From: a virus
IMG/VR virus record: IMGVR_UViG_3300034071_000801
Span: 47,405 to 111,404 of that record
Length of the DNA stretch: 64,000 nucleotides
Strand: one strand, 5' to 3'
The notes beneath the pieces were generated by a model. The model searched no databases and was not told where the DNA came from. It saw only the letters and a list, made by a program, of their open reading frames with translations. Positions within the stretch are counted from its first letter, which is position 1. Each line of letters opens with the position of its first letter. Positions 1-64,000 of the stretch are shown piece after piece. Made by a program: the position numbers and the translations under genes.

Positions 1-15
1 TTAAATCTTTTGATG

Positions 16-796: not shown

Positions 797-1059
797 TATT
801 CAACAGTTTTTCTTGGTCTTCCAACAGGTCTTTTAGCAACAGGTGTTGCAGATTCTGCAAGAGTTGATTTCTTCTTCTTGTTGTAATACTTCTTCTTCTT
901 CTTAGGTTTCTCCACTTCAGTAACAACAAATGTCACTTTTCTAGGTTGAAATAAAGGCGTATCCTCTTCTTCTTTAATTTCTGGTGCATTCTTGTATGCA
1001 AAATACAATGATAATATTGCTATAACAGCAATTGCTCCAATGATAATAGATAATTCCAT
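796..1059 (-). CDS. Membrane-anchored protein with C-terminal AT-hook
   Basis: 87 aa. Residues 2-22 (MELSIIIGAIAVIAILSLYF...) form a single hydrophobic helix. An acidic patch and a Lys-rich stretch (PKKKKKYYNKKKK) follow. The C-terminus carries KRPVGRPRK, a good match to the AT-hook (RPxGRPRK) that binds the minor groove of AT-rich DNA. Together these would tether AT-rich phage DNA to the inner membrane, but that is inference. The start is preceded by ATCTTAACAATT, a diverged version of the TCCTTAATAA element seen before other minus-strand genes. It is coupled by TAATG overlap to the downstream gene. Confidence 0.75.
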   Translation of the reverse strand: MELSIIIGAIAVIAILSLYFAYKNAPEIKEEEDTPLFQPRKVTFVVTEVEKPKKKKKYYNKKKKSTLAESATPVAKRPVGRPRKTVE

Positions 1060-1064
1060 AATTG

Positions 1065-1322
1065 TTAAGATTTAATTCGCAATCCAAACTGAAGTGTGAA
1101 CCACCCAAATGTTTGTTCTGCTTTTGATTTGTTAAATTTAAAGATTTTTTTCATTAAAGGAATAGCATATGCTTTGAATTCCTCATGCTCAGCTGGAGTC
1201 ATTGTCCAGTTAAAGAACCACATATCATCAGATAGTGTATCCTCTAGGGTCTTACCAACCATATTTAGTTGGTATTCAACTAAATGTTTAGAGATGTTCT
1301 CACGATTGATTTTAGCTTTCAT
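1065..1322 (-). CDS. Hypothetical protein, 85 aa
   Basis: Soluble, mixed-charge protein with several aromatic residues (DDMWFFNWTMTPAEHEEF). No domain recognised. It directly follows the DNA polymerase gene, whose stop overlaps its ATG, so it is probably co-translated with the polymerase and may belong to replication. Confidence 0.7.
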   Translation of the reverse strand: MKAKINRENISKHLVEYQLNMVGKTLEDTLSDDMWFFNWTMTPAEHEEFKAYAIPLMKKIFKFNKSKAEQTFGWFTLQFGLRIKS

Positions 1323-3286
1323 TAGAATAAATTTAATTGATTAGGTATAAATACCGTTTTTACTCTTCTGCCTTCAGTTTTAATCTTTAAGACTAATCTG
1401 TTAGCTTTTTCAATGTAGTAATCATAATTGACATTATCAACTTTACTACCTTTTGGTAAGAAATTACAAACTTTACATACCCACTCACCAGCTTCTACTT
1501 GACTTATTGCAGCAGCTCTGGTTTGACACTCTGGATTCTTAATCTTAAAGATCTTATCTCCTTCATTGGATACATAATAGCGTATGAGTTTATCATACAC
1601 TGTCTTCTCACCAGTTGACCTATTGGTCCCTTCATAGTGAAAACTCCTACTAGCTTTCTGTCTTAAGCAAAAATCATAAAGATTAGTGTGAGCACGAATT
1701 GTATGCTCAACAGGAGTACCATGTACAAAATAACTTTCAAGAGCAATAGGTATGATCCTAGCTGATTTGTTTTTATGTAATTCAAAATCAGTAAGGAAAT
1801 CACCTTTTTTCTTAATCTCTCCATTGGTCATAATTGCTAAATAGTCATTCACTGTACTAAAGATAATCTTGGAATAGTCTGTTCTCTCCAACTCATATTG
1901 AGTGATGTCACACCACCATGCATTGATTTCATGCATCAAAGGAATCATGTCTTTCTTAATCTTGATGGTTACACCATCCGTATTAGCAGAGATCACATGT
2001 ATGCCATTGGTTTCATATTTTTCAATAAGCATCATCAAGCTAAGCTCACCAGTAATTGTGGTGAACATAGTTAACTGCCTATCATATATCCAATTCTGCA
2101 TATCAGATGACTTACCATATACAGAGTTAACTGCAAGTTTAAGTGCTCCAACAATTCCTTTAATCTTCTTATCCTTCTTTGCAAAGGGTTTAAGCTCCAA
2201 TCTTTTATCAAACATCTGTTTGTATCCCCGAAGGAATTCCTTACCTAAATGGGCAGGAAACTTACCATTGTTGATAATGATAGCAGGATAATAACTAGAC
2301 ACATCCCAATCAATTATCTCATAGTCTTCATCAGCTTCGAAGATCTTAGGACCATTCTCTGTGTGAAGACCACCTTTCATAAAAGAATACACATTTCCGT
2401 GGAAATCTATATGCTCTTTGAAATCATCTTGCAGACCAAGCTGCATTTTATTAATCTTCTTTAAGAAGTCTTTTAGTTGTGGAGTTTCAAACTTTACATA
2501 CTTAGCAATGCAATTCTTTACATCAATGCTTTTTCTGAAATATCCTTTCTTAGGAAGTTCTCTGTATGTAATTCCTTTCTCTGAACAATAATACTTCTTA
2601 ATCATTTCATCCCCTATCTTAGAGTCTGAATAGTTCATACAAGGGATACCAAATTCAGCTTCAATATCTTGTCTCAGCTCTATTTGATTATTCCCTTTAT
2701 ACAGTGGATGATCTGTATCACCCATAGTTATCTTGTAGAATTCATAAGTTGCATCTACATCATTATAACAATAGTCAATGGTCATCTCCACTTCTTCTTT
2801 TGTCATATTAATTTTGGTATGATGTATAGGCATTTCTTCTATATTCTCAAGATCCATCTCAAACTCTAGTCTTTTAAGACTCACCATTCGATTCTTATTA
2901 TCATAGTGGTGTATCTTGAACAGATCTAATTGTTTGAGGCTTAATTCATGCTCTCTGTACTCAGGGAACACATCATAGTTAGCATCATGAATAACATCAG
3001 CAGCTTTCTGTGCTATTCTTGCACATATTTCTAAATTGCTTAACTCATGCCACTTATCGTAGTTTCTCAAGATCCATTCAACAACTTGACTGTCAAAGCG
3101 TAGATTATTATATCCTACCCAATAAGCATCAGCATGTTCTTCTGTATATCTAACGAATTTATCTAATTGATTCTTCCATTTAGACACTTGAAAGCTCTTA
3201 CCAGCTTTACCAGGCACCATACATACAACTAAGAATAGTTCTTGCATGGTCTCTATGTCATAAATTATTACGTCTTTGTTGTTCAT
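1322..3286 (-). CDS. DNA polymerase, family B, with 3'-5' exonuclease
   Basis: 654 aa replicative DNA polymerase. The proofreading exonuclease is intact: Exo I YDIET (D10, E12), Exo II YNNLRFD (D65) and Exo III Y172xxxD176. The polymerase domain shows motif A DVSSYYP (D328), motif B KLAVNSVYG (about 383-391) and motif C ANTDGV (about 434-439). In motif C the usual first Asp of D-T-D is Asn (N435) while the essential second Asp (D437) is kept. The length is close to small phage polymerases. No primase or helicase is visible in the window, so they probably lie outside it. The start is preceded by AAATAAGATTAC, similar to the region before the next upstream gene. The family assignment is secure; whether synthesis is protein-primed cannot be judged. 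Confidence 0.95.
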   Translation of the reverse strand: MNNKDVIIYDIETMQELFLVVCMVPGKAGKSFQVSKWKNQLDKFVRYTEEHADAYWVGYNNLRFDSQVVEWILRNYDKWHELSNLEICARIAQKAADVIHDANYDVFPEYREHELSLKQLDLFKIHHYDNKNRMVSLKRLEFEMDLENIEEMPIHHTKINMTKEEVEMTIDYCYNDVDATYEFYKITMGDTDHPLYKGNNQIELRQDIEAEFGIPCMNYSDSKIGDEMIKKYYCSEKGITYRELPKKGYFRKSIDVKNCIAKYVKFETPQLKDFLKKINKMQLGLQDDFKEHIDFHGNVYSFMKGGLHTENGPKIFEADEDYEIIDWDVSSYYPAIIINNGKFPAHLGKEFLRGYKQMFDKRLELKPFAKKDKKIKGIVGALKLAVNSVYGKSSDMQNWIYDRQLTMFTTITGELSLMMLIEKYETNGIHVISANTDGVTIKIKKDMIPLMHEINAWWCDITQYELERTDYSKIIFSTVNDYLAIMTNGEIKKKGDFLTDFELHKNKSARIIPIALESYFVHGTPVEHTIRAHTNLYDFCLRQKASRSFHYEGTNRSTGEKTVYDKLIRYYVSNEGDKIFKIKNPECQTRAAAISQVEAGEWVCKVCNFLPKGSKVDNVNYDYYIEKANRLVLKIKTEGRRVKTVFIPNQLNLF

Positions 3287-3314
3287 GTAATCTTATTTTA
3301 ATTTAAAAATTAAT

Positions 3315-3734
3315 TTATATTTTTTTAATTAAATTATTTACCAATTGCCATTCATGTTTGGTTGCTGATAATTTTTTACATAATGAATGTAAAGCATTTA
3401 AAGCATCGTCAACCCTTTGTTTTTTTGTATTGGAATTAGTTGTTGGTGTAATTGGTAATTTATCTGTTAAATCCCATTCTATTACAAGTCTGTCAGTAAC
3501 CCTACATTTTCTTTCTGATTTTTCGTAAACTACTCCTAAATCTCTTAATTGAGATAGTAATTTCCAAGCGTGTTTGACTTGAATTTGATTTTGGTCAATG
3601 TAGCTTTGTAGTTCTCCAGCAGTACAAGGCGAAGAATAAAGCATAGCATCTAATGTTCTTAATCTTAATTTTGAAAGTAATCCTTCTGCTTTAATTTGAT
3701 TGTAACAGTTAATGGAAGTTGTTCTTGTTCCCAT
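3315..3734 (-). CDS. Winged-helix DNA-binding protein
   Basis: 139 aa. Residues ~20-75 read as a winged helix-turn-helix: LRTLDAMLYSSPCTAGELQSYI, then QVKHAWKLLSQLRDLGVVYE, then a basic wing (KSERKCRVTDR). The C-terminal 50 residues are helical and basic. A transcriptional regulator or replication accessory role would fit; no specific family recognised. It lies just upstream of the polymerase gene, and both starts share an AAATAAGATTA sequence at -12 to -1. Confidence 0.75.
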   Translation of the reverse strand: MGTRTTSINCYNQIKAEGLLSKLRLRTLDAMLYSSPCTAGELQSYIDQNQIQVKHAWKLLSQLRDLGVVYEKSERKCRVTDRLVIEWDLTDKLPITPTTNSNTKKQRVDDALNALHSLCKKLSATKHEWQLVNNLIKKI

Positions 3735-3765
3735 AATCTTATTTGTTTTTAAATTATTTCTTCTT

Positions 3766-3963
3766 TCATTCTCTCGTTGTGTTTTTATGATCTCTCCAAT
3801 CTAACCAAAATCCTATTCCTACAATGATGTTCATACCAAATGAGGCAAGAATTTCTGTTATGTCTTCATAGATGTTAATAGATAGGTGGATATGTCCTAC
3901 CATCCAAAAAGGCATAGCAAGATTATTCGATATCCACCTAACTAAATAATTTATAAATTTCAT
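3766..3963 (-). CDS. Small membrane protein, 65 aa
   Basis: Two hydrophobic stretches (about LAMPFWMVGHIHLSI and ILASFGMNIIVGIGFWL) and a charged C-terminus (DWRDHKNTTRE). Probably an inner-membrane protein. No family recognised; neighbours are unrelated small early genes. Confidence 0.65.
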   Translation of the reverse strand: MKFINYLVRWISNNLAMPFWMVGHIHLSINIYEDITEILASFGMNIIVGIGFWLDWRDHKNTTRE

Positions 3964-4010
3964 AGCCTACAAAGATAATTAAAAATGTTATATTATTCTA
4001 ACAATTTTAA

Positions 4011-4259
4011 TTAGACTGGTTTTAATTTACGATTGATAAATTCTCTTACTACCATTCTTGTGATATGTGGTATTCTTTTTGCTTCCAATTCATAATTGAT
4101 AATGTTCTCATACTCAGTCTTACTGATTGAATACATTATACCATTTTTACTACTTGGATTCTCTGATTTAAGAATGACAGATTGTGATTTCACTTTCTTA
4201 ATTATAAAATCTGCCACCTTTCTCTCGTGTGTGTGTTTATTTGCTACTGATAATTCCAT
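4011..4259 (-). CDS. Hypothetical basic protein, 82 aa
   Basis: I take the ATG at 4259 (MELSVANKH). The longer frame would begin inside the upstream gene, and the 4259 start has an A-rich leader (GAAATTTAAAT) two nucleotides beyond that gene's stop. The protein is Lys/Arg-rich and helical, with KTEYENIINYELEAKRIP in the middle. No family recognised. Confidence 0.65.
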   Translation of the reverse strand: MELSVANKHTHERKVADFIIKKVKSQSVILKSENPSSKNGIMYSISKTEYENIINYELEAKRIPHITRMVVREFINRKLKPV

Positions 4260-38506: not shown

Positions 38507-41500
38507 ATGGCAGAAGAGCAACAACAAGGTAATATTAGACAAGAGTATAATAATGGTACTGTTGGTTTAAATATGGATCAAACTTTGAACCAGATTAAAC
38601 CAGGTACATTAACTTATGCCTTAAATGCTGCTTTAGAAAACTTTGATTCTAGTTCTGTTAATTATCAGAATGAACAAGGTAATGAATTATGTGTTACATT
38701 TCCTAAAGGATATATATTAATTGGTACACATTTTATTAATGAGCAAAACAAACATATATTCTACATAACCAATCCTGATACAAATGGTAGTCAGATTGGA
38801 TATATGGATAACAATGATTGTATCTATCATATATTAGTTAGTGCATCATGTCTTAACTTCAACATCAATAATCCTATACATAAAACTGTACATAAGATTA
38901 CAAATTGTACAACAGAGATATATTGGACAGATGGATTAAATCCAAGAAGATATTTAGATATTAATAATATACCAAAACTATTACAAATAGGTAGTACGCT
39001 TTGTGATCCAATATACACTGATGAGTTAGATTGTAATCAACTTAAATTACAACCAAACTTTAGTATTCCACAAATTGCTGTAACAGATATTACTACAGGA
39101 GGAGAACTTGTTGCTGGTACATACCAATTTGCTGCTCAGTATTCTGATGCTTCTGGTAATCCTTATACATCATATTATTCTGTTACTAATCCTACACCTA
39201 TTGCAGATCCTTTCATAACAACAGTTAATTATAATTATACTGTTGGAAAATCTATTGTTCTTAGTCTATCTGAATTAGATATATCAGGACAATATCAATA
39301 TTTCAATTTAGCTGTTATTAAAACAGTTAATGGAATAACTTCTGTAGAATTAGTAGGAACATATTTTATTGAACAAGCTAATGATCAAATTACTTATACA
39401 GGTCAAAATAAAACTCAGATAAGATTAACTATCAATGATATATTTGAGAAGTTTCCTTACTACGATATAGCACAAGATCTTACATCTGTACAAGATATTC
39501 TTGTATGGGATAATCTTACATCCATAGATAGAATTAACTATCAAAGTATTGCTTCTGGTATAAATCTATTATGGGAAACATATAAGATTCCTGCTAATGA
39601 AAACTATGCTGATGAATTAAATGCTACAAACTTACGTGGATATCTACGTGATGAAGTGTATGCTATTGAAATTGTATTCTTATTAAAAAATGGAAAGCAA
39701 ACAGATGGGTTTCATATTCCTGGAAGAGTAAAAGGAATTATTGAAAACACAACTCCAGATGTAGTTGATACAGATCCTGATTTCATTGGGCAACCAGAAC
39801 CAGGTACAAACTATAGTCCTTATTGGAAAATATATAATACAGCAAGTGTTCTTGGTACTGCTCCAGAATATTCACCAGATCCTACATACAAAGGACCATA
39901 TCAATTTGGTGAATTTGCTTATTGGGAATCTACAGATGAATATCCTTGTAATGTAGATGTATGGGGTGATCTCGCTGGTCAACCAATTAGACATCATAAG
40001 TTTCCAGATATCCTTGTTAGTCCAATGTTTGAATCAAAACTATTCTCTAGTCCTGGAGCAATGGTAATGGGTAATGATGCTGTATTCCCTATTGGAATCA
40101 AAATAAATAATGATGAGATAAAAAGTCTTATCAGTGTATCTAATCTAACTACTGAACAAAAAGATGATATAGTTGGATACAAAATAGTAAGAGGAGATAG
40201 AGGAACAAATAAATCTATTGTAGCAAAAGGTATATTAAGAAATGTAGGAACATATGAAAGAGAAAAACAACAATATTTCTATCCAAACTATCCATACAAT
40301 GATCTTCATCAAGATCCTTTCTTAAATCAAACTAATAATGCTTGGACACAATTGTGTGAGCCATTTGTTGTAACTATAACATTCTTAGATTCAGATCCTA
40401 ATGGAGGACCTAGTTATGCAGAAATAGAATACACTAGTTGTAACAATGATAAAATAACAACAGAGAAATTATATAATGTAGGAACTTATCCAATTTGTGC
40501 TATAACCAAACCTATTATCAAAGCTGGTAAAGGTACTTCTGCATATGGTAATTATGAGATATGGAGAATTGCTTCTACTGGTAATGCTTTTCAATTTTGT
40601 GCTGGATGGAAAGCTCAATGGACAGATGAGTTTGGAGAGATAAAAGAAGAATGGGTAGAAGGTTGGCCAACTAATTCTAGTTATACAATTCATGTAAAAC
40701 TTGGAACAGAACCTATATGTATTGATAATTGTGATTCATGTGGACAAAGACGTGATTTTATAGAAATTGTAAATGCTACAAATCAATGTAAGGTACCTAT
40801 ACCACAACCTCCAATATCAGATAATGATTCATACAGACAAATATTTAATTCACCTGAAACATCTTTTGGACAACCATTCTTAGGAGCTATTCTTAAATTA
40901 GAGAATGTAATATTTGGTGGAGGTAAAGGACATTTTGTTCAAGTGAAAGGTAATGCAAAATATAAACTTCTTACAAAAGAAGCACAAGAAGATGCACTTA
41001 AATCTGCACAAGAAGTTGGATCTTTAAGTGTAGGATTTAATGCTACAGCAATGTTTACTGTATACCAAGCATATTTAACAATATATGTAAATGGTATTAC
41101 AAGAAGAAACTATGCTCAATCATTTAACTCTATAGCTGATTATAACTATTCAGAATCTATTCCTAATGATCTTGGTGTTAAACAAAGAAACTTAGATATA
41201 AAAAGATATTTAATTCCTGGAGTTGAATCTGTAGGAGATATACATCCTGTTAATAATTATAGAAGAGAATCTTCAGTTTATTTAAGAACATCACTTTTTA
41301 GAGAAGATGGTGTTACACCAGTACCAGCAATACCATTTCCTAGTAATAGTCCTAATATGCTTATAGGAGGATCTCCTAAAATTACAGATTATTCAAGATT
41401 TACTATTGGAAGTACAACAGCATGTTCTTCTCCTGAGAAAGAACAAGACTTACGTGCAGTTTCTTATTATGCTTCATTAAAAAATCAATTTGTAAATCAA

Positions 41501-43699
41501 TGGGGACAATTATATTCCTATGAAACAATTGATACAGGATTCCAAAGAAGTATTAACTCAGTAGGATCTGATGTAGTATTTGGTGGAGATACATTCATTT
41601 CTCGTTTTGCATTTAAAACTAAGCTTCCATTCTTTATTGATAATAGAGTGAATGCTCCTGATGATAGTGATATATTCTATGATGAGATTGGTAATATAGC
41701 TTATCCAAAATACTGGCATTCTGCTAGATCTATACTAAGTGACTACACTGTTACAGCTGGTGCAACAGGTGTATTAACAAATATCATATCATACAAAGCA
41801 CATAACTTTGATTGTCCTAATAGTCAATTACCTGCTCCTCCAGAATCTAATCCTAATAGAACATATTATGATGGATACTTTTATCTATTTGCATATGGTG
41901 TGCCTAACTTCTATTGTGAGAGTTCTTACAATACAGATCTTAGACAAGCCTTTAATAATAGAGAAGGAGATTTCTGGCCACATGTAAGTACTAACATTCC
42001 TGATGATTGGGTACAAGAAGATTTTGTATCTATAGCAAATGACAATACATATACATACAATGTAACTTTTTCTAAACAGAATAAAGAAAATACATTTACA
42101 CATCTTCCTCCAGATTGGACAGCTCAATTGTGTTATACATATTATCCATTTAGAGCTATATATTCTGATTCACAAAATATTGATTCAGATAATAAAGTGA
42201 ATAGTTGGTTAACGTATAGAGCAATTTCATATTTTGATTTTCCTCAAAACTTTGGAGATCTTACATCATTAGATGGTATTCAGAATAGAGCTATATTAGC
42301 TAGGTTTGAGAATAAGAGTTTAATGTATAATAATCTTCTTACAATTGATACAAGTAATCCACAAGCTGCATATGTAGGTAACCCAACATTATTTAAAGGT
42401 GCTCCTCCAATTGACTTTGCGGAAACAGATCTTGGATATGTAGGAAGTCAGAATAAGTTCTTATTGAAAATACCACAAGGACAAATAACTGTAGATGCTA
42501 AGAGAGGACAAGTGTTTTTAATCTCTGGTACTGAGTCTGTAGATTTATCTGCATTTGGTTCTGGGATGAATAGATTCTTTACAGATCATTTAGCTTTTGA
42601 AATTCTTAGATATTATCCAAATGTAGATACAGATAATAACTTTACAGGTATAGGATTACATGGTGTATATGATAGTAAGTTTGATAGAGTTATTATATCA
42701 AAGCTTGATTATATTCCATTAGATAGTAATATTAAATATGATGCTACACTAAGAGAATTCTATATTGAAGAAATTGTAAATGAACTTACATTTAGAACAC
42801 AAGTGTATTTGACAGATCCAGATTATTTCTGTAATAAGTCTTGGACACTTTCATATAATGTAAATACTAAAACATGGATATCATTTCATAGTTACATTCC
42901 TAATTTCTATATAGCTGAAAACAATTTCTTCTATTCAGGAATTAATGGATGTTGTGAAGACTTTGATTTAGTTGCAGGAGAAATAGTTCCTACACCTAGT
43001 ACAACTACTACTACATCTAGTAGCACATCATCAACTACAACAACCAGTACTACTGTGGCTCCTTTAGATTGTACATTAGTTGGAACAGTAGTTCTAACAA
43101 ATTGTACACTTCAAGGAACAGCAGTAGTTACAGTACCTCCAGTTCCACCACCTTGTACAAGACCTACTACATTGAATACATATACATTAATTACAGGATA
43201 TAATATAATAGCTCCACCTTCAACTGTTGTTTCAACAGGAAGTCAAGTGAACGCATGTGCTGCTATAGCATATGTAACAACACATTCAGATTTTACATAT
43301 ACATCAATTCAAGGAGAAGCATTTATTCTTTCTGTAGGTCAAACTATATATGCAAGTAATGGTACAAATGATTGTTCAGTAATACCTGATGGTTGGTATT
43401 TTACAGATGAAAGTGCACATACAACAACAAATGTATATCATGTTGTATCAGGAATAATTACTCAAATAGTAACATGTGTTCCTACTACAACTACTACCAC
43501 TACATTTTCTTGTACATCTTACACTATTAGTAAATCTACAGTAGGTGTAGTTTCAGTAACATATACAGATTGTACAGGTGTAGTTACAAGTGCAAGTGTT
43601 GGTGAAGTAGGAGGAGGACCTTCATTCACAACATTCTGTGCAAGATGTTGTATATCTACTCCACCAGAAGTAACATTAACTAATAACGGACCTTGTTAA
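38507..43699 (+). CDS. Muzzle / tail-stabilization protein with appended Thr-linked modules
   Basis: 1730 aa. The start of the protein (QEYNNGTVGLNMDQTLNQIK, then PGTLTYALNAALENFDSSS) and NQKHIFYITNP-type beta-propeller-like repeats match the large crAss-like tail stabilization or muzzle protein that plugs the tail tube, as I recall it. From residue ~1500 the protein changes character: PTPSTTTTTSSSTSSTTTTSTTVAP, a Cys-containing module, VPTTTTTTTFSC and a final module ending VTLTNNGPC. The appended modules probably face outwards and may bind host glycans. Confidence 0.8.
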   Translation: MAEEQQQGNIRQEYNNGTVGLNMDQTLNQIKPGTLTYALNAALENFDSSSVNYQNEQGNELCVTFPKGYILIGTHFINEQNKHIFYITNPDTNGSQIGYMDNNDCIYHILVSASCLNFNINNPIHKTVHKITNCTTEIYWTDGLNPRRYLDINNIPKLLQIGSTLCDPIYTDELDCNQLKLQPNFSIPQIAVTDITTGGELVAGTYQFAAQYSDASGNPYTSYYSVTNPTPIADPFITTVNYNYTVGKSIVLSLSELDISGQYQYFNLAVIKTVNGITSVELVGTYFIEQANDQITYTGQNKTQIRLTINDIFEKFPYYDIAQDLTSVQDILVWDNLTSIDRINYQSIASGINLLWETYKIPANENYADELNATNLRGYLRDEVYAIEIVFLLKNGKQTDGFHIPGRVKGIIENTTPDVVDTDPDFIGQPEPGTNYSPYWKIYNTASVLGTAPEYSPDPTYKGPYQFGEFAYWESTDEYPCNVDVWGDLAGQPIRHHKFPDILVSPMFESKLFSSPGAMVMGNDAVFPIGIKINNDEIKSLISVSNLTTEQKDDIVGYKIVRGDRGTNKSIVAKGILRNVGTYEREKQQYFYPNYPYNDLHQDPFLNQTNNAWTQLCEPFVVTITFLDSDPNGGPSYAEIEYTSCNNDKITTEKLYNVGTYPICAITKPIIKAGKGTSAYGNYEIWRIASTGNAFQFCAGWKAQWTDEFGEIKEEWVEGWPTNSSYTIHVKLGTEPICIDNCDSCGQRRDFIEIVNATNQCKVPIPQPPISDNDSYRQIFNSPETSFGQPFLGAILKLENVIFGGGKGHFVQVKGNAKYKLLTKEAQEDALKSAQEVGSLSVGFNATAMFTVYQAYLTIYVNGITRRNYAQSFNSIADYNYSESIPNDLGVKQRNLDIKRYLIPGVESVGDIHPVNNYRRESSVYLRTSLFREDGVTPVPAIPFPSNSPNMLIGGSPKITDYSRFTIGSTTACSSPEKEQDLRAVSYYASLKNQFVNQWGQLYSYETIDTGFQRSINSVGSDVVFGGDTFISRFAFKTKLPFFIDNRVNAPDDSDIFYDEIGNIAYPKYWHSARSILSDYTVTAGATGVLTNIISYKAHNFDCPNSQLPAPPESNPNRTYYDGYFYLFAYGVPNFYCESSYNTDLRQAFNNREGDFWPHVSTNIPDDWVQEDFVSIANDNTYTYNVTFSKQNKENTFTHLPPDWTAQLCYTYYPFRAIYSDSQNIDSDNKVNSWLTYRAISYFDFPQNFGDLTSLDGIQNRAILARFENKSLMYNNLLTIDTSNPQAAYVGNPTLFKGAPPIDFAETDLGYVGSQNKFLLKIPQGQITVDAKRGQVFLISGTESVDLSAFGSGMNRFFTDHLAFEILRYYPNVDTDNNFTGIGLHGVYDSKFDRVIISKLDYIPLDSNIKYDATLREFYIEEIVNELTFRTQVYLTDPDYFCNKSWTLSYNVNTKTWISFHSYIPNFYIAENNFFYSGINGCCEDFDLVAGEIVPTPSTTTTTSSSTSSTTTTSTTVAPLDCTLVGTVVLTNCTLQGTAVVTVPPVPPPCTRPTTLNTYTLITGYNIIAPPSTVVSTGSQVNACAAIAYVTTHSDFTYTSIQGEAFILSVGQTIYASNGTNDCSVIPDGWYFTDESAHTTTNVYHVVSGIITQIVTCVPTTTTTTTFSCTSYTISKSTVGVVSVTYTDCTGVVTSASVGEVGGGPSFTTFCARCCISTPPEVTLTNNGPC

Positions 43700-53656: not shown

Positions 53657-56600
53657 ATGCCAATTTTTGACAACGAACTTATAGATAATACATCTGATAG
53701 AGAAATTAGATTACCACAAGCACCATTAGGATCTCCTGTTACAAGAGAGATAAATACTGACATGGGAGGAAACTGGGGTAATAGTAATAGAAATAAAGTT
53801 GAAATGGGTTTAAGCCTAGATGAACTTGCTAATGTACAAGCTCCAACTCAAACATCTTTTGATAAACCTTTTAGTTCTGTAAGTGCAAAAACATTATTAG
53901 ATAATAAACGTTATCCTATGTATGAAAGAGATGTAGATCTTGAAAACATATATGGATTACAACAATCATGGTATACTAAATTAGGACATAGTCTTGTTAA
54001 AGCTGGAGTTACAGCTGCTGGTACATTTGCACAATCTCTTACAGATATTCCTAATACAATATCAGCTCTTAAGAATGGTAGTATGGCTGATCTTTCTGGT
54101 AATCCAGATGGATATGAAGGAAGTATAGATAATTGGATTAAGAACTTTGAAGATATTCTTCCTAACTATATGACTAGAGAGGAAAAAGAACATCCTTATT
54201 TAGCTATGATTCCTTTTGCTCCAGGGTCTGCAAACTTTTGGGGAGAATCAGTTATTAAGAATCTTGGATTTACAGCTGGTGCTATTGCAGGAGCAGTGGT
54301 ACAAGATGCTGCAATTGGTGCTGTTACAGAAGGTGTAGGAGCAGTTCCATTACTTGCTAATCAAATAGGTAAAACTGCTTTATGGATTAATAAACTTGCA
54401 GGAGGAACTAATAAAGTTGAATCTGTTTTAGATTTAGCAAGAACATTAGGTAAAACTGAAAAACAACTTTTAAAAATACAACAACTAGGAAACATAGCTC
54501 AATCTCAGAAAGTATTAAATGGTGCACGTTATGGTATCATTAGTTGGGGATCTGCACAAACAGAAGCTGGTGTTGAAGCTAGAGATGGATATAGACATGT
54601 TAAAGAACAATTAATTCAAGAGTATAGAGATAAGAACTTTGGTGAAGAACCTATAGGACAATCTCTTCAAGAAATTGAAGACTATTCTACTAATGCTATG
54701 AATACTAGATTTGGTATTAACATGGCATTGTTAACTGTATCTAATGCTGTACAATTTGATAACTTATTTAAATCTTTTACTACAGCTCAAAAAGGAGTTA
54801 CAGGAAGTCTTACAAGAGGTATAGGTGAATCTGGTAAGGTGGGTCTTAAAGAAGGAAGTATTGATGTATTTGAAAAGAAAGCTGTAACAGGTGCAAAAGA
54901 TAGAGTTTGGGATTTTGTTAAACCTAAACTTCCTAATATATTATCTGAAGGTGTATACGAAGAAGGTGGACAATATGCTGCTGAAAAAGGAACCTATGAT
55001 TATTATACAAGAAAATATAAAAACCTTAACAATCCAGTTAAGAAACAAAACTGGGATGATTTAAATGAAATTGTTAGTTCAACTACTTATGGTTTATCTG
55101 AACAATTTAATAGTACAGAAGGTATTAATAATATGATTGTCGGTGGACTTACTGCTATGTTAATAGGAGGAGGACAATCAATATATGATAGAGCAAAAGG
55201 ACAAGGTCAAGATGCTAGATTAAACTCTTCTGTTAGTATGCTTAACAGATATGGAATGACAGGTATTCTTTCTGATAAGTATGACAATACATTAAACTCT
55301 ATTGGTATAGCAAAAGAAATGAATGCTGCTGCAGAGAGTGGAGATATATTTAGATATAAAAATCTTAAGAATGATATGTTTTTCAATTTTGTACAATCAC
55401 GTATTCCTTCTGGAATGCATGATGTTACAATTGAACAATTAAGTATGTTGAAAGATCTTGATAAAGAAGATTTCCAAAAAACTTTTGGGATGGACTTTAA
55501 TTCATCTAACCAAAAAACTGTAAATGGATATGTAGATTCATTAATTGAAAAAGCTAATGATATTAATAAAACATCAGAAGCTATAAATGCTACATTTAAA
55601 AATCCATTCACTCCTTCTACAGATCCTAAAACTCCTGAAGCAGTATCTGAAAACTTTAATCATGACACTTTTGAAAGTTGGAAAACAGATCTTAACTACT
55701 ACGCATCAATTAAAGATGATGTAAATCATAGACTTGATTCTATACAAGATAAAGTATCACAAATAAATCCTCTTTTAGATAATGATACATTAGCTAGTAT
55801 AACTGATGCAGATTCATTAAAAGAATTATCTAGATCATACGAAGAAAGAGCTAATCAATTAAATAAAACAATAACTGAGTACACTACACCTGCTGATAAA
55901 AAAGCTACTAGAGAACAAGTAAAAGCATTACGTACACAGTCTGAAAAAATTAATCTTGCTTTGAATAGCAAATCTCTTGATTTAAAAACATTCCATTCAT
56001 TACTAAACTTTGAATTAAACAATCAAGATGGTAAGAAAGATGATGTTGTAGGTCTTGAGAATGCTTCAGAGCTGTATGTATATGGAGCTGATATTAATAA
56101 AAACAGTGAACATAAAAAAGCAGCAAGTGTAGCATTTGATAATCTTTCTACAGAAGAAGGATTTGATAAATATTTCAAACAAGCAAAAGATATTGCTGAT
56201 AATCAAGTTGCTGCTGAAGAAGCTGATAAAACTGTCACTGGTCCTACATTTGTTAATAGTGAAAAACAACAAGAGCCATTAGAAGTTAATAGAGAGTATG
56301 AAGTGAAAGCTACAAAGAAAGCTACTATTAATAAAATTGCTGAAGATAGATATGAAGTGGTAGCTCCTGATGGAACTTCTTCTTTCTATAAAACTGAAGA
56401 ACAAGCTAAAGAAGAAGCTAAAGATTTAACTGATGAGAATACTAACTTATCTAAGGTTAAAGTGTTAGCAACAAATGAAGATGGTACAGTTAAAGTGGAA
56501 GATGTTAATGGAGATATATTAAATATTGATCCTTCAAGATTACAAGGATATGCTAAAATAAAAACTCAAGAAGAGAAACTAGGTAAGGATAAAGAAGTGA

Positions 56601-59600
56601 TTGATGCAGAACAAGATAAATTAGAATTGTCTTCTGCAGATGTAGAAACTACTTTTGTTGAACCAGGTGAACATGTTGGTTCAGAAGATAAGAGAAAAGA
56701 TGTTGATATATTATTTCTTGCTACATCTAGTCCTTCTGAAGATACAGCTGGTGAATATGTAAATAACTTACCACATGTAAAAAGATCAAGAAAATTCTTA
56801 AATAATGCTAAGTTTTCTAAGAATAGAGGTGACATGAAAGTTATTATTGTCACTCCTAATAATGCAGAAGAATTAGGACTAGAAGGAATTGTACAGCTTT
56901 CATTTGATAAACAAATAGGAGACACTCTTACTGAAGATGAGACTAATGTTGAGATGGGTTTTATGGCTCAGGTATATATTGTACAAACACCTGAAGGAAA
57001 TTTCTTTGTTGATGAAAATGGTAATAAATTAAGTAAAGTTGGTGAAAAAAATCCTACTATACTAAATCATGTTATCTTTCAAACAATGACTTCTGCTAGT
57101 CTTTATACAGAAGGAGGATATGAGAAAGTTAGAGCTGGTCAAGAAAAAGAAGCTGAAAGAGCTCTTGAAGCTTATAAGATATTTAGAGAAGATGTATTTG
57201 CTCAAAAGGGATACACTCCTTATCCATTTGCTATATCAAGAGGAATACCTAGAAAAAATATAGTTAATGATGTATATGAAGATAATCATATGTCTGATAT
57301 ACTTGGTCCAGATGCAGAAGATATTATTGCTAATCATGATAACTTAATCACTGTAGTTACAACAGGTAAACATGAACACAATGGAGAGCTTTTAACTTTT
57401 GATAAAGGAACAACATTAATTCAATATGGTGATCTTTTAGATTTTGCAAACAATAAAAATGTTACAAACAAACAAGCAAATAATATATTTGCTGTAATAG
57501 ATGCATTAGCAAAAGACTTAATTGAAAAATCTAATAGTGGTAAACCTGTAAAATTAAACTATAACTATTCTAAATTTTTACAAAACGTTTTATATTGGAG
57601 ATCTAAAGCAGATACATCTACACCTAGTCAAATAGGTATAGATACTAATGCAATGGAATTTAGAATTGGTGATAAATCATTTCCACTATCTGCAATTCCT
57701 AATAGTAAAAAAGAAATAATAGATGCTCTACAAGATGCATTCATTACAATCAATAACAAGACATTAGCTGAAGGAACTTCTAAAAAGTTTACAGAATATG
57801 TTGTAGATAAAGATGGTGCTTTAAAACCTATTGTTTGGAAGAATTATCAATCATATTTATTATCTAGTAAAAATCCTGATGGTTCTTCTCGTTCAACAGA
57901 AGATACACCATTGATTACACATACAGCTAAACCAACAGAAAACAATAATGCATATAAACAAAAATATACATTTATAACAGATAAAAATATTCTTCCTTAT
58001 GATAGAGTTCCAGTTAAAGAAGAAACAGAAGAAGAGATCACTGTTGAAGAAGATGATGATATTGTTGGTGAATATAAATTAGATGGAGAAAAAGTTAATA
58101 CATCTAGTATTATAAATGCAGGTCCTATATCATTTACAGGAAAGATAATTAAAGCTAACGGTGAAAGTGTTGTTGAAGTAGAAATACTTGATAATGATAC
58201 TATTAAAAAACTTACTACAGATCGCCCATTAATAAATGCAATTGATGCTAACTTAACTGCTATTGCAAATAATCCAGTCACTGAATCTACTGTACCAGAT
58301 AATATAAAAGCAGCATTAGGTAAAGATCTTTTATTAGATGAAAAAGCAAAACTATTTGCTAATATAAGAGTTAGTAGAGAGATAACAGATTTAGCAAATG
58401 CTCCTAAACAAGAAGCTCCTAAAGCTAAAAAGAAAGAAGCTCCTAAACCTGAAAAAGTTGTTGAAACTGAGAAACAACTTTCTGTAATGAATAATTTAAA
58501 AGATAAATCTGGAGAACTATATATTCAATCAGATACAACAGATTCAATTAGTAATCATTATGAATTTATAATAAAGAATGGTAAAGTAGTAAGTGGTAGA
58601 TATAAAACTTATTTTCAAGGTGAATATAGAGATCGAAAAACTGATGATGATGTAAAAGATTCTGAAACTAAATTAAAAGAGTTATTAGAAAGACCATATA
58701 TATATAATGATTATCTTTCTAAATCTTCTGAGTTTACTGAAGAAGGAACTAATATAAAAACTTCATTAACTGAACTAGCTGCTTTGGGAAAAGCTCCAGT
58801 AGCAGAAGAAGTTTCTGATATAGAAGCTAAGAAAGCTGATATAGAAAAAAGAAGAAATGAGCAATTATCTAAAACATCTATTGCAGATGGAAATGGTTTT
58901 TCATATCCTGAAAGTACTAGAGCAAAAGAAATCAATGCTAAATATGATGCTGAGTTAGCTGCTTTAGAAGGAGCTAAAGAAGAAAAACCATTTAATTCTT
59001 CTTTTAAATTTAAAAGTAAAGAAGGTCCTTCTGAATTTAGAAGAACAGGTAAAGATGGTGGTGAAAGAATGACCAATGCTGAATTAGAGATATTCAAAGA
59101 ATGGCATGCTGAGAATGTTCCATTTATTCCTTTTGAAATATTAGAAAATATTATTGAAAGAGGAGATATAAAAGCATGGGGTGTATTTGAAGATGGTGTA
59201 GCTAAATTTGTTAGAGGTGGTCTTAAAGGAACAGAGTATCATGAAGTGTTTGAAGCTATATGGGCTGACTTCTTAACAGAAGAAGAGAAAAATAACTTAC
59301 TAACTGAATTTAAAAATAAAAAAGGAGAATTCACAGATAGACAATCTGGTAAAAAATATAGTTATTCAGATCCTTACCTATCTGATAAAATCATTAAAGA
59401 AAGAATAGCTGATGACTTTGCTGATTTTAGATTAGGTAAATTACCATCTATATCATTAGGGGAAGCTATACGTAAATTCTTTATGAAGATAGTAGATTTC
59501 TTCAAAGCATTTATTATCAATCCTTCATTGAAAAATGAATTGTTTAATGCAATTGATTCTGGTAAGTTTAAAGAAACAAAATTATCACAGAGAGCTAAAT

Positions 59601-62600
59601 CTATGGCTCCTGAATATAGAGCAATAGAAGGACTTACTGAGCAGCAAACCAATGAGTTTATACAAGACATGGTTGCTAATGTTAAACTTATTATTTTTAG
59701 AGAAGGAAGAAAAGATCTTTTATTTAATCCTGAGAAACTTACAGGACAAGAAGTGTTTACACAAGTTAGAGAAAAATATGAAGATCTTGGGGCAGTTGAA
59801 TCATTAGGTGAAAAAAGATACAATGAACTTGTTAAAAGATCTATTGAATTCTTAAGAACAACAGGTATAACATTCAATGCAGAAGAAGCTGTTTCTATAA
59901 ATAATGAAGATGCTAACAATAGAGAATATACACCAGATCCTTTTTCTGTAGATTGGAAAAAGCATTCTACAGGTGCACTTAAGTTTTTGTTATCTACATT
60001 AACTGAAAGAAAAGCATTGAATCAAACAAATGTAGAAAAAGGTAAAGAGTTAAAACCTGCTGAACAAAATCTTTCAGATATTGGAGGATTAAAACTTTTA
60101 AATTTCAATAGAGTGTTTGCTACATTGTTAGACAGACTTCATAATACAAATGATCCTGCTGAGTTTACTAATAAACTTATACAGCTTGCAAAAGAAGATT
60201 CAAACTATCTTCCTGTATTTGCAGCTTTAGGAGGAAATAGAGAAACGCATACATTTAATTTTGACTTATTTAAAGAGTCAGATTGGAGATTGTTTATTCA
60301 ATTCTTTAATACATTCACAAGACAAAAGCCTGAAGCATTAATTCAATATGTTTCTGAAGAAGGAGATGTATATACAGGAAATGCAAATATATTCACAGTA
60401 GTAAAACAAACTGTTGATTCTTGGGTAGATAACATGAAAGTGTTAGGTAAAGCTACTGGTGGATTAATAAACTATGACAAAGCTAATAAAGTTTATAAAA
60501 TAAATACAGTAGCAATTGCAGGTCTTCCTATTAAGAAATCTAATGATATGTTAGACTTTTTATCTAAGATAGGTATAGAGTTTTCTGCAGGAACTTATGA
60601 AGCATTAAGCGATAGAGAAACTATTATAAAAGGAAAGGTAACAACTGAGAAAAAATTATTTGTTGGTGCTGTTAATTCTATATATACACAATTAGGAAAG
60701 AATAATACATTAATGACATTTGATGCTAAGAGATTAGATATTGGTGGACCATTAAGAGTATTAGCAGGTCTTCATACTAAAGTGAATAATCCTAATCAAG
60801 ATTCTACATATTTTGGTGTAGAAGGACAACGTATTGGTTCATTCTCAGAAAACAATGCTCCTTCTTATTTTGAAAATACATTTAATGAATCTAAGACATT
60901 AGATGAGCTTTTGCAAAAAATGCCTCAATTAAATGATGTGTATTCTAGAGGAAGTGAAATATTAAAACCAGGTGGACTTTTCTTTGATAAATATAGAAAC
61001 AGAATTGCTGAACTTAAAGTGGAATATATTCAAGGAAGCAAGAATGAGAGTACTGGAAAAAATAAATCTACAGCTAAATTAGGACTTGGTGAGAGATTTG
61101 TCCAAGAGATAAATCAAAACATCAATGGTAAATACTATGTTCTTATTCCTGGTGATAGTTCAACAGAATGGATGATGAGCTTAGGTAATGTTATTTCTAT
61201 GGATGATGTTATCTCTGGTGATCATTGGGACAAGGTTCATAACATTTACAGTAATTATTTAATTGATGATATAAAACTAGCATTAGAAGATAGAAAACAA
61301 AATCTATATACAAGAGCTAAGTCTCAAGAACTTAGAATCATGAGAGATATTCTTCCTCAAGATATTGTTGAAGCTATTGAAAAAATGATTAAAGATGAAG
61401 ATTCATTTGATAAAATTGAAAAATACATTGATAAGAATAGAAATAAAATAGATAATGCTGTAACTTATTTCATAGAAGATCTATCAGAAGAAACATTTAA
61501 AACATTAGTTGAGTCTAATCAAATAGCAATGGTTGGAGAAGATGAATACTATCTTACTAAATTTGATACAGAGTTCTTAAAGAAATATAAATTAGATGGT
61601 AAAGTTACACGTGATGAAGCGATGAATCTTATAAACTTTGCTAATATCAACTATGAGATAAACAATCAAGAATACCACAAAGTATTATTTGGAGATCCTT
61701 ATCAGTTTAAAACTGAGAAAGGAAAACTAGATGAAACAAAACGTATTAAATCATTTTTATCTGGTAGAAGAAGAACTTTTGATACTCCTGAATACAATAA
61801 CTTCTTAAAAAGACAATATAACTCTGTAGGAGATATTAAGTTAGATGAGAAAGCTCCTGGTTATCATTCTTACAAATCATACACTAACACTATTACATTT
61901 AGTAATATAGACATTGTTGGTAGTGTTGCTATGATGCCAAATGTTCCAAATGAAATTAAAGAGGTGTATGCTAAAACAGATGAATCAGATGCAATGTCTT
62001 GGTTGATGGATAATACACATAAAGAAATTGCTTTAAAAGAAGGACAGTGGACTTCTCAAGCTGAAGCATTTCATCAATGGCACATGGCTTATACAAGAAG
62101 AGCATATGATGCTAGAGAAGATATTGAATGGACTTATGGTGACAACACTGAATTAAAAGCAAAAGATGCAGCATTATTAAAATTTGATATGCCTAAGCAT
62201 AAACTTGCTGTAAGAAAACCTATTATCTCTGGAAACAAAGCTGATAAAAAAGAAATAGATCTTGTATTAGATAAGACATCTCAAATGCCTTTGTACTATC
62301 ACATGGTAGAAGGAACTAGTTTACAAAAAATGTATGACAATATGTTCAAACAAAATATTGGATATAGTATTGTTGTATCTGGTAGAAAGGTAGGAGCACA
62401 AGATCTTCATAACGTATATGATGCTAATGGTGACTTTAACAATTCTGAATATGGAAAAAACAACATAGTTGAGGTTCCTTGGAAGATATATGGTACACAA
62501 GTAGAAACTATGTCTGAAGGAGAGAAAGTTCAAACAAGAGGCTCTCAGCTTACAAAATTATCTACTGTAGATCTTTATGAGAATGGTGAAGCAATTGGTG

Positions 62601-64000
62601 CAACTCCTGAAAGAAAAGAAGTAATTAAAAATGCTGTTGAAAGAAATACAAAAGTGTTAAATCTTTTAAATTTAAATGCATATAATGAGTTATTAAATAA
62701 AATTGGTGTTGTAGATCTTGGTGATGGATATGCTCTTGAAGATAATAAGAGAATATCTGAAACATTGATGTATGAGATGATGAGAAGAGATCTTTCTGAG
62801 AATGCTAAAGATACAATTCAATTAGATGATAATGGTGAGTTTCCTATGCCATTTGAAGCTTCTCCTTCATATTTCCAAATTAAAAGTATTTTATATTCAT
62901 TAGTTAATAAAGCATTAATATCTCCATCAATGAGTGGAGCTCCTCATGTACAAGCTCCTGTTACAATGTTTGAAAAAGCTACAGAAGGAAGAAGTCTTGC
63001 AAGAAAAACTGATGAAGGTTGGGTGAAGATTACTAAAGCTCAATATGCTGCTCTTACAGAAGAAGAAAAGAAGAGTGTGATGCTTACAGATGATACACTT
63101 AAATTCTATGAAGATGAAGATGGAAAACGCTATTGTGAAGTGATGCTCCCTCATTGGTTTAAAGATAAATTTGGAAAGAAAACTGATGAACAAATTCTTG
63201 AATATTTAAAAACAGATGAAGGTAAAAAGATATTAACTGGTATAGGATTTAGAATTCCTACACAAGCTTTATCTTCTGTTGAGGTGTTTAGAGTGAAAGG
63301 ATTCCTTCCACAATATATGGGAAGCACTGTAATAGTTCCTTCAGAGATTACTTCTAAAGCAGGATCGGATTTTGATATTGATAAGTTGAACATGTATCTT
63401 AAATCTATATACACTGATGTTAATGGTAATGTTAAATTAATTACATATAAAGGATCTGAACAAGCTACAAAAGCTTTTTATAGTAAAGTGTATGAAGATA
63501 CAATCCAAAAAGAAATTGATAAAATTGAAAAGTATGATGATTTTAGATCAACAACAATTGATGTATTAAGAATAATAGAATCAGCTAGTGAACAATCTGT
63601 TACAGACATTGGTTCATTAATGACTAATGATCAAATAGATTTTTATAATTATCATTCTAAACTTTTACAAAATATAATAGAACAAGCAGCTGAGAAAAAC
63701 TTAAGTCCTTCTGAATATATTGTTAATCAGCAAGAGAATTTAAATGCAAATAAAGATAAACTTTCATTGAATCAACTTAATCAACAATTAAAAAATGATT
63801 ATGCAAATACAATGTATAAGAAATCTCTTGAGAATGAATATTATGATTCATTAGAAGAACTTCTTACACTTAAAGAAAACTTTATCAAATTGATTACACC
63901 TGTTGATGATGCAGGATTAGAAAAAATGTCTGAGTTATTAGATAATAAAAGAGGATATACAGAATCAAAAATTAAAGGAAGACTTATTAATAGAAACTAC
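53657..64000 (+). CDS. Giant virion RNA polymerase-like protein (partial, 3' end outside window)
   Basis: An open frame of 3448 codons runs off the window. N-terminal region: MPIFDNELIDNTSDREIRLPQAP, then Ala/Gly-rich hydrophobic helices (~170-260) that may be membrane-active. A zincin-like motif TEYHEVFEAIWADFLTEEE (H1862, E1863) has Glu where the second His is expected. Near the right end GSDFDIDKLNMYL (D3238, D3240, D3242) follows PQYMGSTVIVPSEITSKA. A DFDID loop is the metal-binding catalytic signature of crAss-like virion RNA polymerases (phi14:2 gp66) as I recall. The motif lies about twice as far from the N-terminus as in that ~2200-aa enzyme, so other domains are fused upstream. It would be ejected to transcribe early genes. 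Confidence 0.8.
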   Translation, partial: MPIFDNELIDNTSDREIRLPQAPLGSPVTREINTDMGGNWGNSNRNKVEMGLSLDELANVQAPTQTSFDKPFSSVSAKTLLDNKRYPMYERDVDLENIYGLQQSWYTKLGHSLVKAGVTAAGTFAQSLTDIPNTISALKNGSMADLSGNPDGYEGSIDNWIKNFEDILPNYMTREEKEHPYLAMIPFAPGSANFWGESVIKNLGFTAGAIAGAVVQDAAIGAVTEGVGAVPLLANQIGKTALWINKLAGGTNKVESVLDLARTLGKTEKQLLKIQQLGNIAQSQKVLNGARYGIISWGSAQTEAGVEARDGYRHVKEQLIQEYRDKNFGEEPIGQSLQEIEDYSTNAMNTRFGINMALLTVSNAVQFDNLFKSFTTAQKGVTGSLTRGIGESGKVGLKEGSIDVFEKKAVTGAKDRVWDFVKPKLPNILSEGVYEEGGQYAAEKGTYDYYTRKYKNLNNPVKKQNWDDLNEIVSSTTYGLSEQFNSTEGINNMIVGGLTAMLIGGGQSIYDRAKGQGQDARLNSSVSMLNRYGMTGILSDKYDNTLNSIGIAKEMNAAAESGDIFRYKNLKNDMFFNFVQSRIPSGMHDVTIEQLSMLKDLDKEDFQKTFGMDFNSSNQKTVNGYVDSLIEKANDINKTSEAINATFKNPFTPSTDPKTPEAVSENFNHDTFESWKTDLNYYASIKDDVNHRLDSIQDKVSQINPLLDNDTLASITDADSLKELSRSYEERANQLNKTITEYTTPADKKATREQVKALRTQSEKINLALNSKSLDLKTFHSLLNFELNNQDGKKDDVVGLENASELYVYGADINKNSEHKKAASVAFDNLSTEEGFDKYFKQAKDIADNQVAAEEADKTVTGPTFVNSEKQQEPLEVNREYEVKATKKATINKIAEDRYEVVAPDGTSSFYKTEEQAKEEAKDLTDENTNLSKVKVLATNEDGTVKVEDVNGDILNIDPSRLQGYAKIKTQEEKLGKDKEVIDAEQDKLELSSADVETTFVEPGEHVGSEDKRKDVDILFLATSSPSEDTAGEYVNNLPHVKRSRKFLNNAKFSKNRGDMKVIIVTPNNAEELGLEGIVQLSFDKQIGDTLTEDETNVEMGFMAQVYIVQTPEGNFFVDENGNKLSKVGEKNPTILNHVIFQTMTSASLYTEGGYEKVRAGQEKEAERALEAYKIFREDVFAQKGYTPYPFAISRGIPRKNIVNDVYEDNHMSDILGPDAEDIIANHDNLITVVTTGKHEHNGELLTFDKGTTLIQYGDLLDFANNKNVTNKQANNIFAVIDALAKDLIEKSNSGKPVKLNYNYSKFLQNVLYWRSKADTSTPSQIGIDTNAMEFRIGDKSFPLSAIPNSKKEIIDALQDAFITINNKTLAEGTSKKFTEYVVDKDGALKPIVWKNYQSYLLSSKNPDGSSRSTEDTPLITHTAKPTENNNAYKQKYTFITDKNILPYDRVPVKEETEEEITVEEDDDIVGEYKLDGEKVNTSSIINAGPISFTGKIIKANGESVVEVEILDNDTIKKLTTDRPLINAIDANLTAIANNPVTESTVPDNIKAALGKDLLLDEKAKLFANIRVSREITDLANAPKQEAPKAKKKEAPKPEKVVETEKQLSVMNNLKDKSGELYIQSDTTDSISNHYEFIIKNGKVVSGRYKTYFQGEYRDRKTDDDVKDSETKLKELLERPYIYNDYLSKSSEFTEEGTNIKTSLTELAALGKAPVAEEVSDIEAKKADIEKRRNEQLSKTSIADGNGFSYPESTRAKEINAKYDAELAALEGAKEEKPFNSSFKFKSKEGPSEFRRTGKDGGERMTNAELEIFKEWHAENVPFIPFEILENIIERGDIKAWGVFEDGVAKFVRGGLKGTEYHEVFEAIWADFLTEEEKNNLLTEFKNKKGEFTDRQSGKKYSYSDPYLSDKIIKERIADDFADFRLGKLPSISLGEAIRKFFMKIVDFFKAFIINPSLKNELFNAIDSGKFKETKLSQRAKSMAPEYRAIEGLTEQQTNEFIQDMVANVKLIIFREGRKDLLFNPEKLTGQEVFTQVREKYEDLGAVESLGEKRYNELVKRSIEFLRTTGITFNAEEAVSINNEDANNREYTPDPFSVDWKKHSTGALKFLLSTLTERKALNQTNVEKGKELKPAEQNLSDIGGLKLLNFNRVFATLLDRLHNTNDPAEFTNKLIQLAKEDSNYLPVFAALGGNRETHTFNFDLFKESDWRLFIQFFNTFTRQKPEALIQYVSEEGDVYTGNANIFTVVKQTVDSWVDNMKVLGKATGGLINYDKANKVYKINTVAIAGLPIKKSNDMLDFLSKIGIEFSAGTYEALSDRETIIKGKVTTEKKLFVGAVNSIYTQLGKNNTLMTFDAKRLDIGGPLRVLAGLHTKVNNPNQDSTYFGVEGQRIGSFSENNAPSYFENTFNESKTLDELLQKMPQLNDVYSRGSEILKPGGLFFDKYRNRIAELKVEYIQGSKNESTGKNKSTAKLGLGERFVQEINQNINGKYYVLIPGDSSTEWMMSLGNVISMDDVISGDHWDKVHNIYSNYLIDDIKLALEDRKQNLYTRAKSQELRIMRDILPQDIVEAIEKMIKDEDSFDKIEKYIDKNRNKIDNAVTYFIEDLSEETFKTLVESNQIAMVGEDEYYLTKFDTEFLKKYKLDGKVTRDEAMNLINFANINYEINNQEYHKVLFGDPYQFKTEKGKLDETKRIKSFLSGRRRTFDTPEYNNFLKRQYNSVGDIKLDEKAPGYHSYKSYTNTITFSNIDIVGSVAMMPNVPNEIKEVYAKTDESDAMSWLMDNTHKEIALKEGQWTSQAEAFHQWHMAYTRRAYDAREDIEWTYGDNTELKAKDAALLKFDMPKHKLAVRKPIISGNKADKKEIDLVLDKTSQMPLYYHMVEGTSLQKMYDNMFKQNIGYSIVVSGRKVGAQDLHNVYDANGDFNNSEYGKNNIVEVPWKIYGTQVETMSEGEKVQTRGSQLTKLSTVDLYENGEAIGATPERKEVIKNAVERNTKVLNLLNLNAYNELLNKIGVVDLGDGYALEDNKRISETLMYEMMRRDLSENAKDTIQLDDNGEFPMPFEASPSYFQIKSILYSLVNKALISPSMSGAPHVQAPVTMFEKATEGRSLARKTDEGWVKITKAQYAALTEEEKKSVMLTDDTLKFYEDEDGKRYCEVMLPHWFKDKFGKKTDEQILEYLKTDEGKKILTGIGFRIPTQALSSVEVFRVKGFLPQYMGSTVIVPSEITSKAGSDFDIDKLNMYLKSIYTDVNGNVKLITYKGSEQATKAFYSKVYEDTIQKEIDKIEKYDDFRSTTIDVLRIIESASEQSVTDIGSLMTNDQIDFYNYHSKLLQNIIEQAAEKNLSPSEYIVNQQENLNANKDKLSLNQLNQQLKNDYANTMYKKSLENEYYDSLEELLTLKENFIKLITPVDDAGLEKMSELLDNKRGYTESKIKGRLINRNY

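Follow-up and report, generated by a model that had tools for sequence, protein, structure and literature searches.

Virion RNA polymerases that form part of giant proteins have been described in several phages. In N4 (gp50) and P23-45 (gp96) the virion RNA polymerase (vRNAP) is joined to ejection or tail domains in a giant chain (PMC12633501, PMC10770324), and giant fused polymerases of up to ~6,000 aa are a hallmark of crAss-like phages (PMC10136315), described also in PMC10770324. CrAss-like phages and N4 alike raise the question of how chains of 2,000-6,000 residues are loaded, ordered and passed through a narrow phage tail. The DNA considered here, termed the window, is a stretch of 64,000 nucleotides (nt), positions 47,405 to 111,404 of the IMG/VR virus record IMGVR_UViG_3300034071_000801. 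An open reading frame (ORF) at 53657-64000 on its plus strand codes for residues 1-3448 of a chain of ~4,896 residues, judged by sequence and modelled fold to be a crAss-like virion RNA polymerase of the phi14:2 gp66 type. A lone cysteine at almost every boundary between this protein, its relatives and their partners would be a simple physical answer to the question above.

The closest described system is phi14:2, in which gp66 (PDB 6VR4), together with g067 and g065, shares with the window the polymerase (by sequence and fold), the gene order and the boundary cysteines; g065-g067 are annotated as virion proteins from tandem mass spectrometry (MS/MS). In phi14:2 these are three separate genes, whereas in the window the first two form one chain and NADAR and helicase domains stand behind the polymerase. 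In crAss001, gp47 corresponds to window residues 1 to ~2000 and gp50 to the polymerase; mass spectrometry (MS) places gp47, gp49 and gp50 in the virion as cargo (PMC10172136). There gp47, gp50 and gp49 are separate genes, gp47 lies on the opposite strand, and its C-terminal domain has the motif HEAFH where the window has HEVFE. A single giant chain whose C-terminal half contains the polymerase is found in Flavobacterium phage Fpv3 (gp32, 4,287 aa), cr55_1 (4,551 aa) and cr130_1 (5,801 aa). In Fpv3 and cr55_1, unlike in the window phage, this chain lacks any Pfam enzyme domain; cr130_1 has NADAR and DUF7831 where the window phage has NADAR and a helicase. The N4 protein differs in being T7-like and free of cysteine, and the P23-45 polymerase in forming the N-terminal part of the tape measure protein.

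Polyvalent proteins (PMC5512222) are also alike: they are large chains, thought to be delivered together with DNA, in which host-modifying enzymes and nucleic-acid enzymes are brought together. The window chain and some of its relatives are likewise large multidomain chains with host-directed or nucleic-acid enzymes, and ART-PolyVal is found just below the cut-off in two relatives of the window protein, at the gp47/polymerase junction (L025, L079). However, PMC5512222 makes no mention of NADAR, AlkB or crAss, and the chassis here is the virion polymerase. Delivery of the giants into the host with the DNA, in the polyvalent manner, is suggested by virion MS of relatives (PMC10172136).

Cysteines at the ends of the cargo proteins

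The source record is 111,404 bases long and the window ends where the record ends. A preliminary description of this DNA had the frame still open at that point, and no stop occurs over the 3,448 codons translated. The rest lies in the opening 4,236 bases of the same record (locus L002, record 1-4236), a 5'-open ORF of 1,411 codons which picks up the same relatives 37 residues past the point where the window protein stops (alignment breakpoints 3291 then 3329 for L005, 3365 then 3403 for L009). The full chain is thus ~3448+37+1411 = 4,896 aa, and by these alignments the record is cut within the polymerase gene with ~111 nt absent between its two ends. A search for a terminal repeat that would join the two ends of the record found none; the 37-codon gap fits the relatives compared. 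The giant frame is not a chance one, because the complete N-terminal-plus-polymerase chain is carried as one ORF by 79 of 87 distinct homologues; the other eight are mostly contig-end fragments but include a frameshift in L018 and genuine splits in L079 and L122. Median chain length is 4,211 aa over 73 complete-looking relatives. A lone in-frame TAA (L103, 10811-10813) within an otherwise complete giant polymerase is either an error or recoding.

The 4,896-residue chain, apart from the 37 residues of the gap, has two cysteines, Cys3160 (63134-63136, the only one of the in-window part) and the penultimate Cys4895 in the tail ...KLKDCY. The next gene (L002 4236) codes for a 1,543-aa protein that starts MACINPND, with a cysteine at position 3. 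Among giants with a true C-terminus (L028 was left out as truncated) a cysteine lies within the last six residues in 80 of 80 and within the last five in 79. Their C-terminal tails are of at least 24 unrelated types, all with a cysteine. The median is 2 cysteines per giant (per 4,200 residues), and the terminal one is the sole cysteine in 20 of 68. The giants' own first 30 residues have none; the ORF that follows has one in its first 12 residues in all 72 cases, mostly at position 3-5. As background, 12 of 71 ORFs in the record have such a head cysteine and 4 of 71 a tail cysteine. In L122, where a chain of the window type is split, cysteine pairs stand at both boundaries. Extra members with both head and tail cysteines are L027 (534 aa), L117 (421 aa) and phi17:2 gp038.

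The same rule is seen where the genes are separate (phi14:2, crAss001, DAC15, cr128_1, cr85_1, cr111_1 and Dulem virus 41). Proteins of gp47 type have a tail cysteine and no head cysteine, polymerases have both, and g65-type proteins have a head cysteine and no tail cysteine. Boundaries between gp47, polymerase and g65 thus generally carry cysteines on both sides, and the pair is gone where the genes are fused. The rule holds with gp47 and polymerase on opposite strands (crAss001, DAC15, cr128_1, cr85_1). In crAss002 and cr107_1 the polymerase gene, of ~4,200 codons, is not followed by a separate g65 gene and the tail cysteine is missing. Where the polymerase is broken at DFDID, in cr108_1 and bajarodcaudo virus 1, a cysteine pair is missing, as expected if these breaks are introns. 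In cr108_1 (L040, 23406-23700) the giant gene is broken exactly at DFDID and its remainder lies in an ORF 290 nt further on; this break is probably an intron.

Tails and heads also match between phages. Among phage pairs with core identity under 45%, similar heads were found in 41 of 50 pairs with similar tails vs 58 of 1,172 with dissimilar tails; shuffled matchings gave a mean of 5.8 and a maximum of 15. The literature searched, which excludes most subscription papers, the 6VR4 paper among them, yielded no account of terminal cysteines in these proteins, and the pattern looks new.

Proposed coupling of the cargo and rival explanations

Placement and matching of the cysteines may point, with slightly better than even probability, to end-to-end coupling of gp47-type, polymerase and g65-type proteins into a cargo train that is disulfide-locked in the virion. 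The three proteins would then make up one ordered train. Where they are separate, the upstream member ends in a short cysteine-bearing tail and the downstream one begins with a short head, its cysteine at ~3-5; since tail and head types match, they most likely dock and would be locked by a disulfide. In the window chain a peptide bond would now stand in for the first coupling, and the second, between Cys4895 and Cys3 of the 1,543-aa protein, would be kept. On ejection the members of the train would pass through the tail in order and the disulfide would be reduced in the host cytoplasm, where the accessory enzymes could act at once on incoming DNA or host ADP-ribose signals. Disulfides are known from other parts of the crAss001 virion, and the crAss001 cargo protein gp45 is thought to exit N-terminus first (PMC10172136). 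An example of tail and head peptides is GYTPKEIGKILKSIC with ANCPNKNLEEWKLLV. The wider proposal, a covalent train sealed by disulfides at matched tail/head pairs, with fusion as permanent coupling and the polymerase as chassis for swapped counter-defence enzymes, is evenly poised between right and wrong. Coupling, if true, would account for the occurrence of the same domains as one chain in certain phages and as separate proteins elsewhere, and a short tail suggests itself as a means to load a protein as cargo.

The same cysteines could instead belong to non-covalent docking or packaging elements for head assembly, as metal-bridged or buried thiols and with no disulfide. The placement rule and the tail/head matching need binding only, and assembly takes place in a reducing cytoplasm; yet one cysteine kept on each side amid changing sequence, in chains nearly free of cysteine, suits a bond over an interface, and two cysteines alone make a poor metal site, so this explanation is possible but rather unlikely. 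Simple descent is improbable: giant fused polymerases are indeed the described crAss-like hallmark (PMC10136315, PMC10770324) and this could be an ordinary one with inherited terminal cysteines of no coupling role, but all of the unrelated tail types keep the cysteine despite its near absence elsewhere, and newly made ends, e.g. both ends in the split L122, carry it as well. Translational bypassing, by which a ribosome would hop from the last cysteine codon to the first cysteine codon of the next gene and make one chain, would account for cysteine codons on both sides of genes that nearly abut in the window's relatives. It was rejected as scarcely credible, given the cysteines kept by the four opposite-strand phages named above and a TGT/TGC choice that is independent between the two sides (54/9/8/1). 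A DNA-level cause of the C-terminal cysteine, i.e. the start signal of the next gene, was likewise discarded, as gp47 of crAss001 and of DAC15 ends in cysteine with no co-directed gene following.

Several observations weigh against the disulfide-locked train. No bond has been observed, and the disulfide itself is something that we infer. In most phages the tail and the head that follows it are encoded side by side, so that joint transfer alone could match them. The polymerases of crAss001, cr128_1 and bajarodcaudo virus 1 have their last cysteine at -8 to -9, outside the last six residues, and the annotated starts of crAss002 gp33 and bajarodcaudo g65 lack a head cysteine, possibly through mis-set starts. 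N-terminal cysteines are not rare in the record (the 12 of 71 ORFs given above) and are frequent in fibre-like ORFs downstream (44 of 104). The N4 vRNAP is without any cysteine, so the device would not be general for giant polymerases.

Other proteins with terminal cysteines occur nearby. Fibre-like proteins after the g65-type gene (L059 19537, L015 19863, L130 18866) start MNxxCxAxPCPV or similar, a sequence pattern which suggests that tail fibres could also be cysteine-attached. A 1,730-aa structural protein at window 38507-43699, in the place of the crAss001 muzzle, ends in cysteine (TLTNNGPC).

Polymerase core and gp47-type part

DFDID was found at residues 3238-3242 (63368-63382), where the preliminary description had put it; the pattern GAYTTYGAYATHGAY has its sole match in the 111,404-base record at this site, and the reversed pattern has 0 matches there. 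With phmmer against the PDB the only match is 6vr4_A, the phi14:2 virion RNA polymerase (E 6.9e-19, residues 2873-3333). Hidden Markov models (HMMs) built from 26 relatives match phi14:2 g066 (E 2e-42) and crAss001 gp50 (3e-30), and DFDID and the lysine of SGRKVG (62378-62395) are invariant across relatives. An AlphaFold2 model of 2560-3448, of moderate confidence (pLDDT 67.7), has 6vr4_A as its only significant Foldseek match in the PDB (E 2.7e-20), the next, QDE-1, not being significant. The virion RNA polymerase proposed earlier is thus borne out by sequence search and, for the two-barrel fold around DFDID, by model. A T7-like single-subunit polymerase of N4 type was rejected, as the core matches the two-barrel 6VR4 instead. 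Pfam and PHROGs gave nothing above noise for the 3,448-residue part because the polymerase has diverged beyond the reach of these libraries. The two-barrel catalytic core (2620-3300) spans 61514-63556, the N-terminal part of the polymerase (2000-2620) 59654-61516, and the C-terminal part (3380-4150) begins at 63794-64000 and goes on in L002.

The phage has a terminase large subunit (TerL), portal and major head protein of crAss-like kind and the crAss-like virion gene order (PHROG matches). Its TerL is closest to phages outside the named Crassvirales families (Lbo-JY46 40%, then phi4:1/phi17:2 31%), with no close named relative. Leptolyngbya phage Lbo-JY46 (L039) is the nearest named relative by both TerL and N-terminal domain; its next protein, of 2,748 aa, has no detectable polymerase core and yet starts MSNC, and the partner before it ends VNC.

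The ~2,000 residues of other domains that had been proposed ahead of the polymerase are there, in the same chain. Residues 1-870 (53657-56266) are homologous by tblastn and HMM to the N-terminus of crAss001 gp47 (HMM E 7e-59) and to Lbo-JY46 XAI97382 (E 3e-67), and residues 1790-2000 (59024-59656) match the gp47 C-terminal domain (HMM E 9e-17); a gp47 homologue is therefore fused to the polymerase at ~residue 2000. Between them lie a middle domain (870-1560, 56264-58336) with a confident alpha/beta model, which has no PDB fold match but a BFVD match to a Virus NIOZ-UU157 protein (E 3e-31), and a variable linker (1560-1790, 58334-59026) that in some relatives contains a sub-threshold NADAR-like domain.

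Other crAss-like phages encode the front domains separately, as had been supposed: on the opposite strand to the polymerase gene in crAss001, DAC15, cr128_1 and cr85_1, and adjacent on the same strand in cr111_1, Dulem virus 41 and phi14:2. In cr55_1 an HExxH domain and the polymerase share one ORF, as they do in cr108_1 save for the break at DFDID, and Fpv3 likewise codes for a single giant chain. Since giant or fused polymerases are published (PMC10136315; PMC10770324), the fusion is not new.

Two of the features first ascribed to this part fared less well. The Ala/Gly-rich segment (~205-223) is a helix but only moderately hydrophobic (mean hydropathy 1.48), and a transmembrane segment is borderline only. 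The zincin-like segment is not supported as a metallopeptidase: the motif in the 1790-2000 domain is HEVFE (59240-59254), not HExxH, there is no Pfam peptidase match, and the model, which is weak in this region, has no PDB fold match. Across 82 relatives the last position of HExx[E/H] is Glu in 62 and His in 19, the motif being missing in one; with no third residue used, this resembles constrained switching rather than decay.

Exchangeable enzymes behind the polymerase

Behind the polymerase and in the same frame, the window phage chain carries a NADAR domain (L002 2041-2469; PF08719, 58.3 bits vs a cut-off of 35.1) and, from L002 2740, an SF1 helicase of Dda/RecD-like kind (AAA_30 106.5 bits, plus UvrD_C_2, by Pfam). 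The NADAR catalytic residues, as given in PMC11543638, are present (TVEGYYQASK with Glu, and Lys at +7), and the last-strand place is His, judged by eye, as in phage NADARs (PMC11125620). The helicase motifs are intact: GYAGTGKT and DESSM (Walker A, B) and GDSYQL, TAHKSQGS and YTAITR (III, V, VI). No second NADAR or helicase match of this kind occurs elsewhere in the record.

The enzymes in this place vary among relatives. AlkB is found in L006, L007 and L026; NADAR in L009, L032 and L063; cpYpsA-SLOG joined to NADAR in L071; a helicase in L078, L082, L132 and L133; DUF7831 with or without a helicase in L083 and L097; and AlkB, NADAR and helicase together in L005 and L103. In a tree built from 84 polymerase cores, the helicase occurs at 8 tips with 7 changes, NADAR at 9 tips with 8 changes and AlkB at 5 tips with 4 changes. 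The AlkB module was exchanged recently, as its fourfold-site identity between L005/L006/L007 and L026 is 82-87% vs only 52-64% in the polymerase core. The window-type helicase is 53-63% identical where the core is ~46-48%. From these identities a single ancestral cassette, often lost, is possible for the window-type helicase and ruled out for AlkB. An intein as source of the L005 insertion was rejected, the insertion being the AlkB domain; a phage source for the AlkB module was sought and none was found.

Among other crAss-like phages, cr126_1 has NADAR fused to the polymerase in a product named 'DUF1768 domain-containing protein'; in cr130_1 and cr272_1, both recoded, it lies on the polymerase just under the Pfam cut-off, with strong matches by family HMM. 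No Pfam domain was found in Fpv3 or cr55_1, or in crAss002 gp33 over its C-terminal part. Phage NADARs are typically standalone (PMC9503650). No paper on NADAR joined to a crAss-like polymerase was found in the literature searched, and the exchangeable enzyme cassette behind the polymerase looks new.

Through swapped NADAR, AlkB and helicase modules, counter-defence enzymes would be present in the host from the very onset of infection, carried on the polymerase itself. Whether NADAR would act there on adducts of incoming DNA or mainly counter soluble ADP-ribose signals of host immunity is a close call, the soluble role falling just short of an even chance. Phage NADAR has been argued to target mainly soluble derivatives (PMC9503650), and its joining to cpYpsA-SLOG in L071 fits such a role; against this, one phage NADAR is able in vitro to strip guanine in DNA of its ADP-ribose (PMC11125620), and AlkB and the SF1 helicase, the companions of NADAR here, work on nucleic acids.

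The cr272_1 giant polymerase (L139, 5237-24397), in a recoded genome, is of 6,386 aa and is followed by NADAR, DUF7831 and DUF1848. DUF7831 recurs on crAss-like virion polymerases (L083, L097, L136, L139), adjoining NADAR in two of them, and may be a further early effector.
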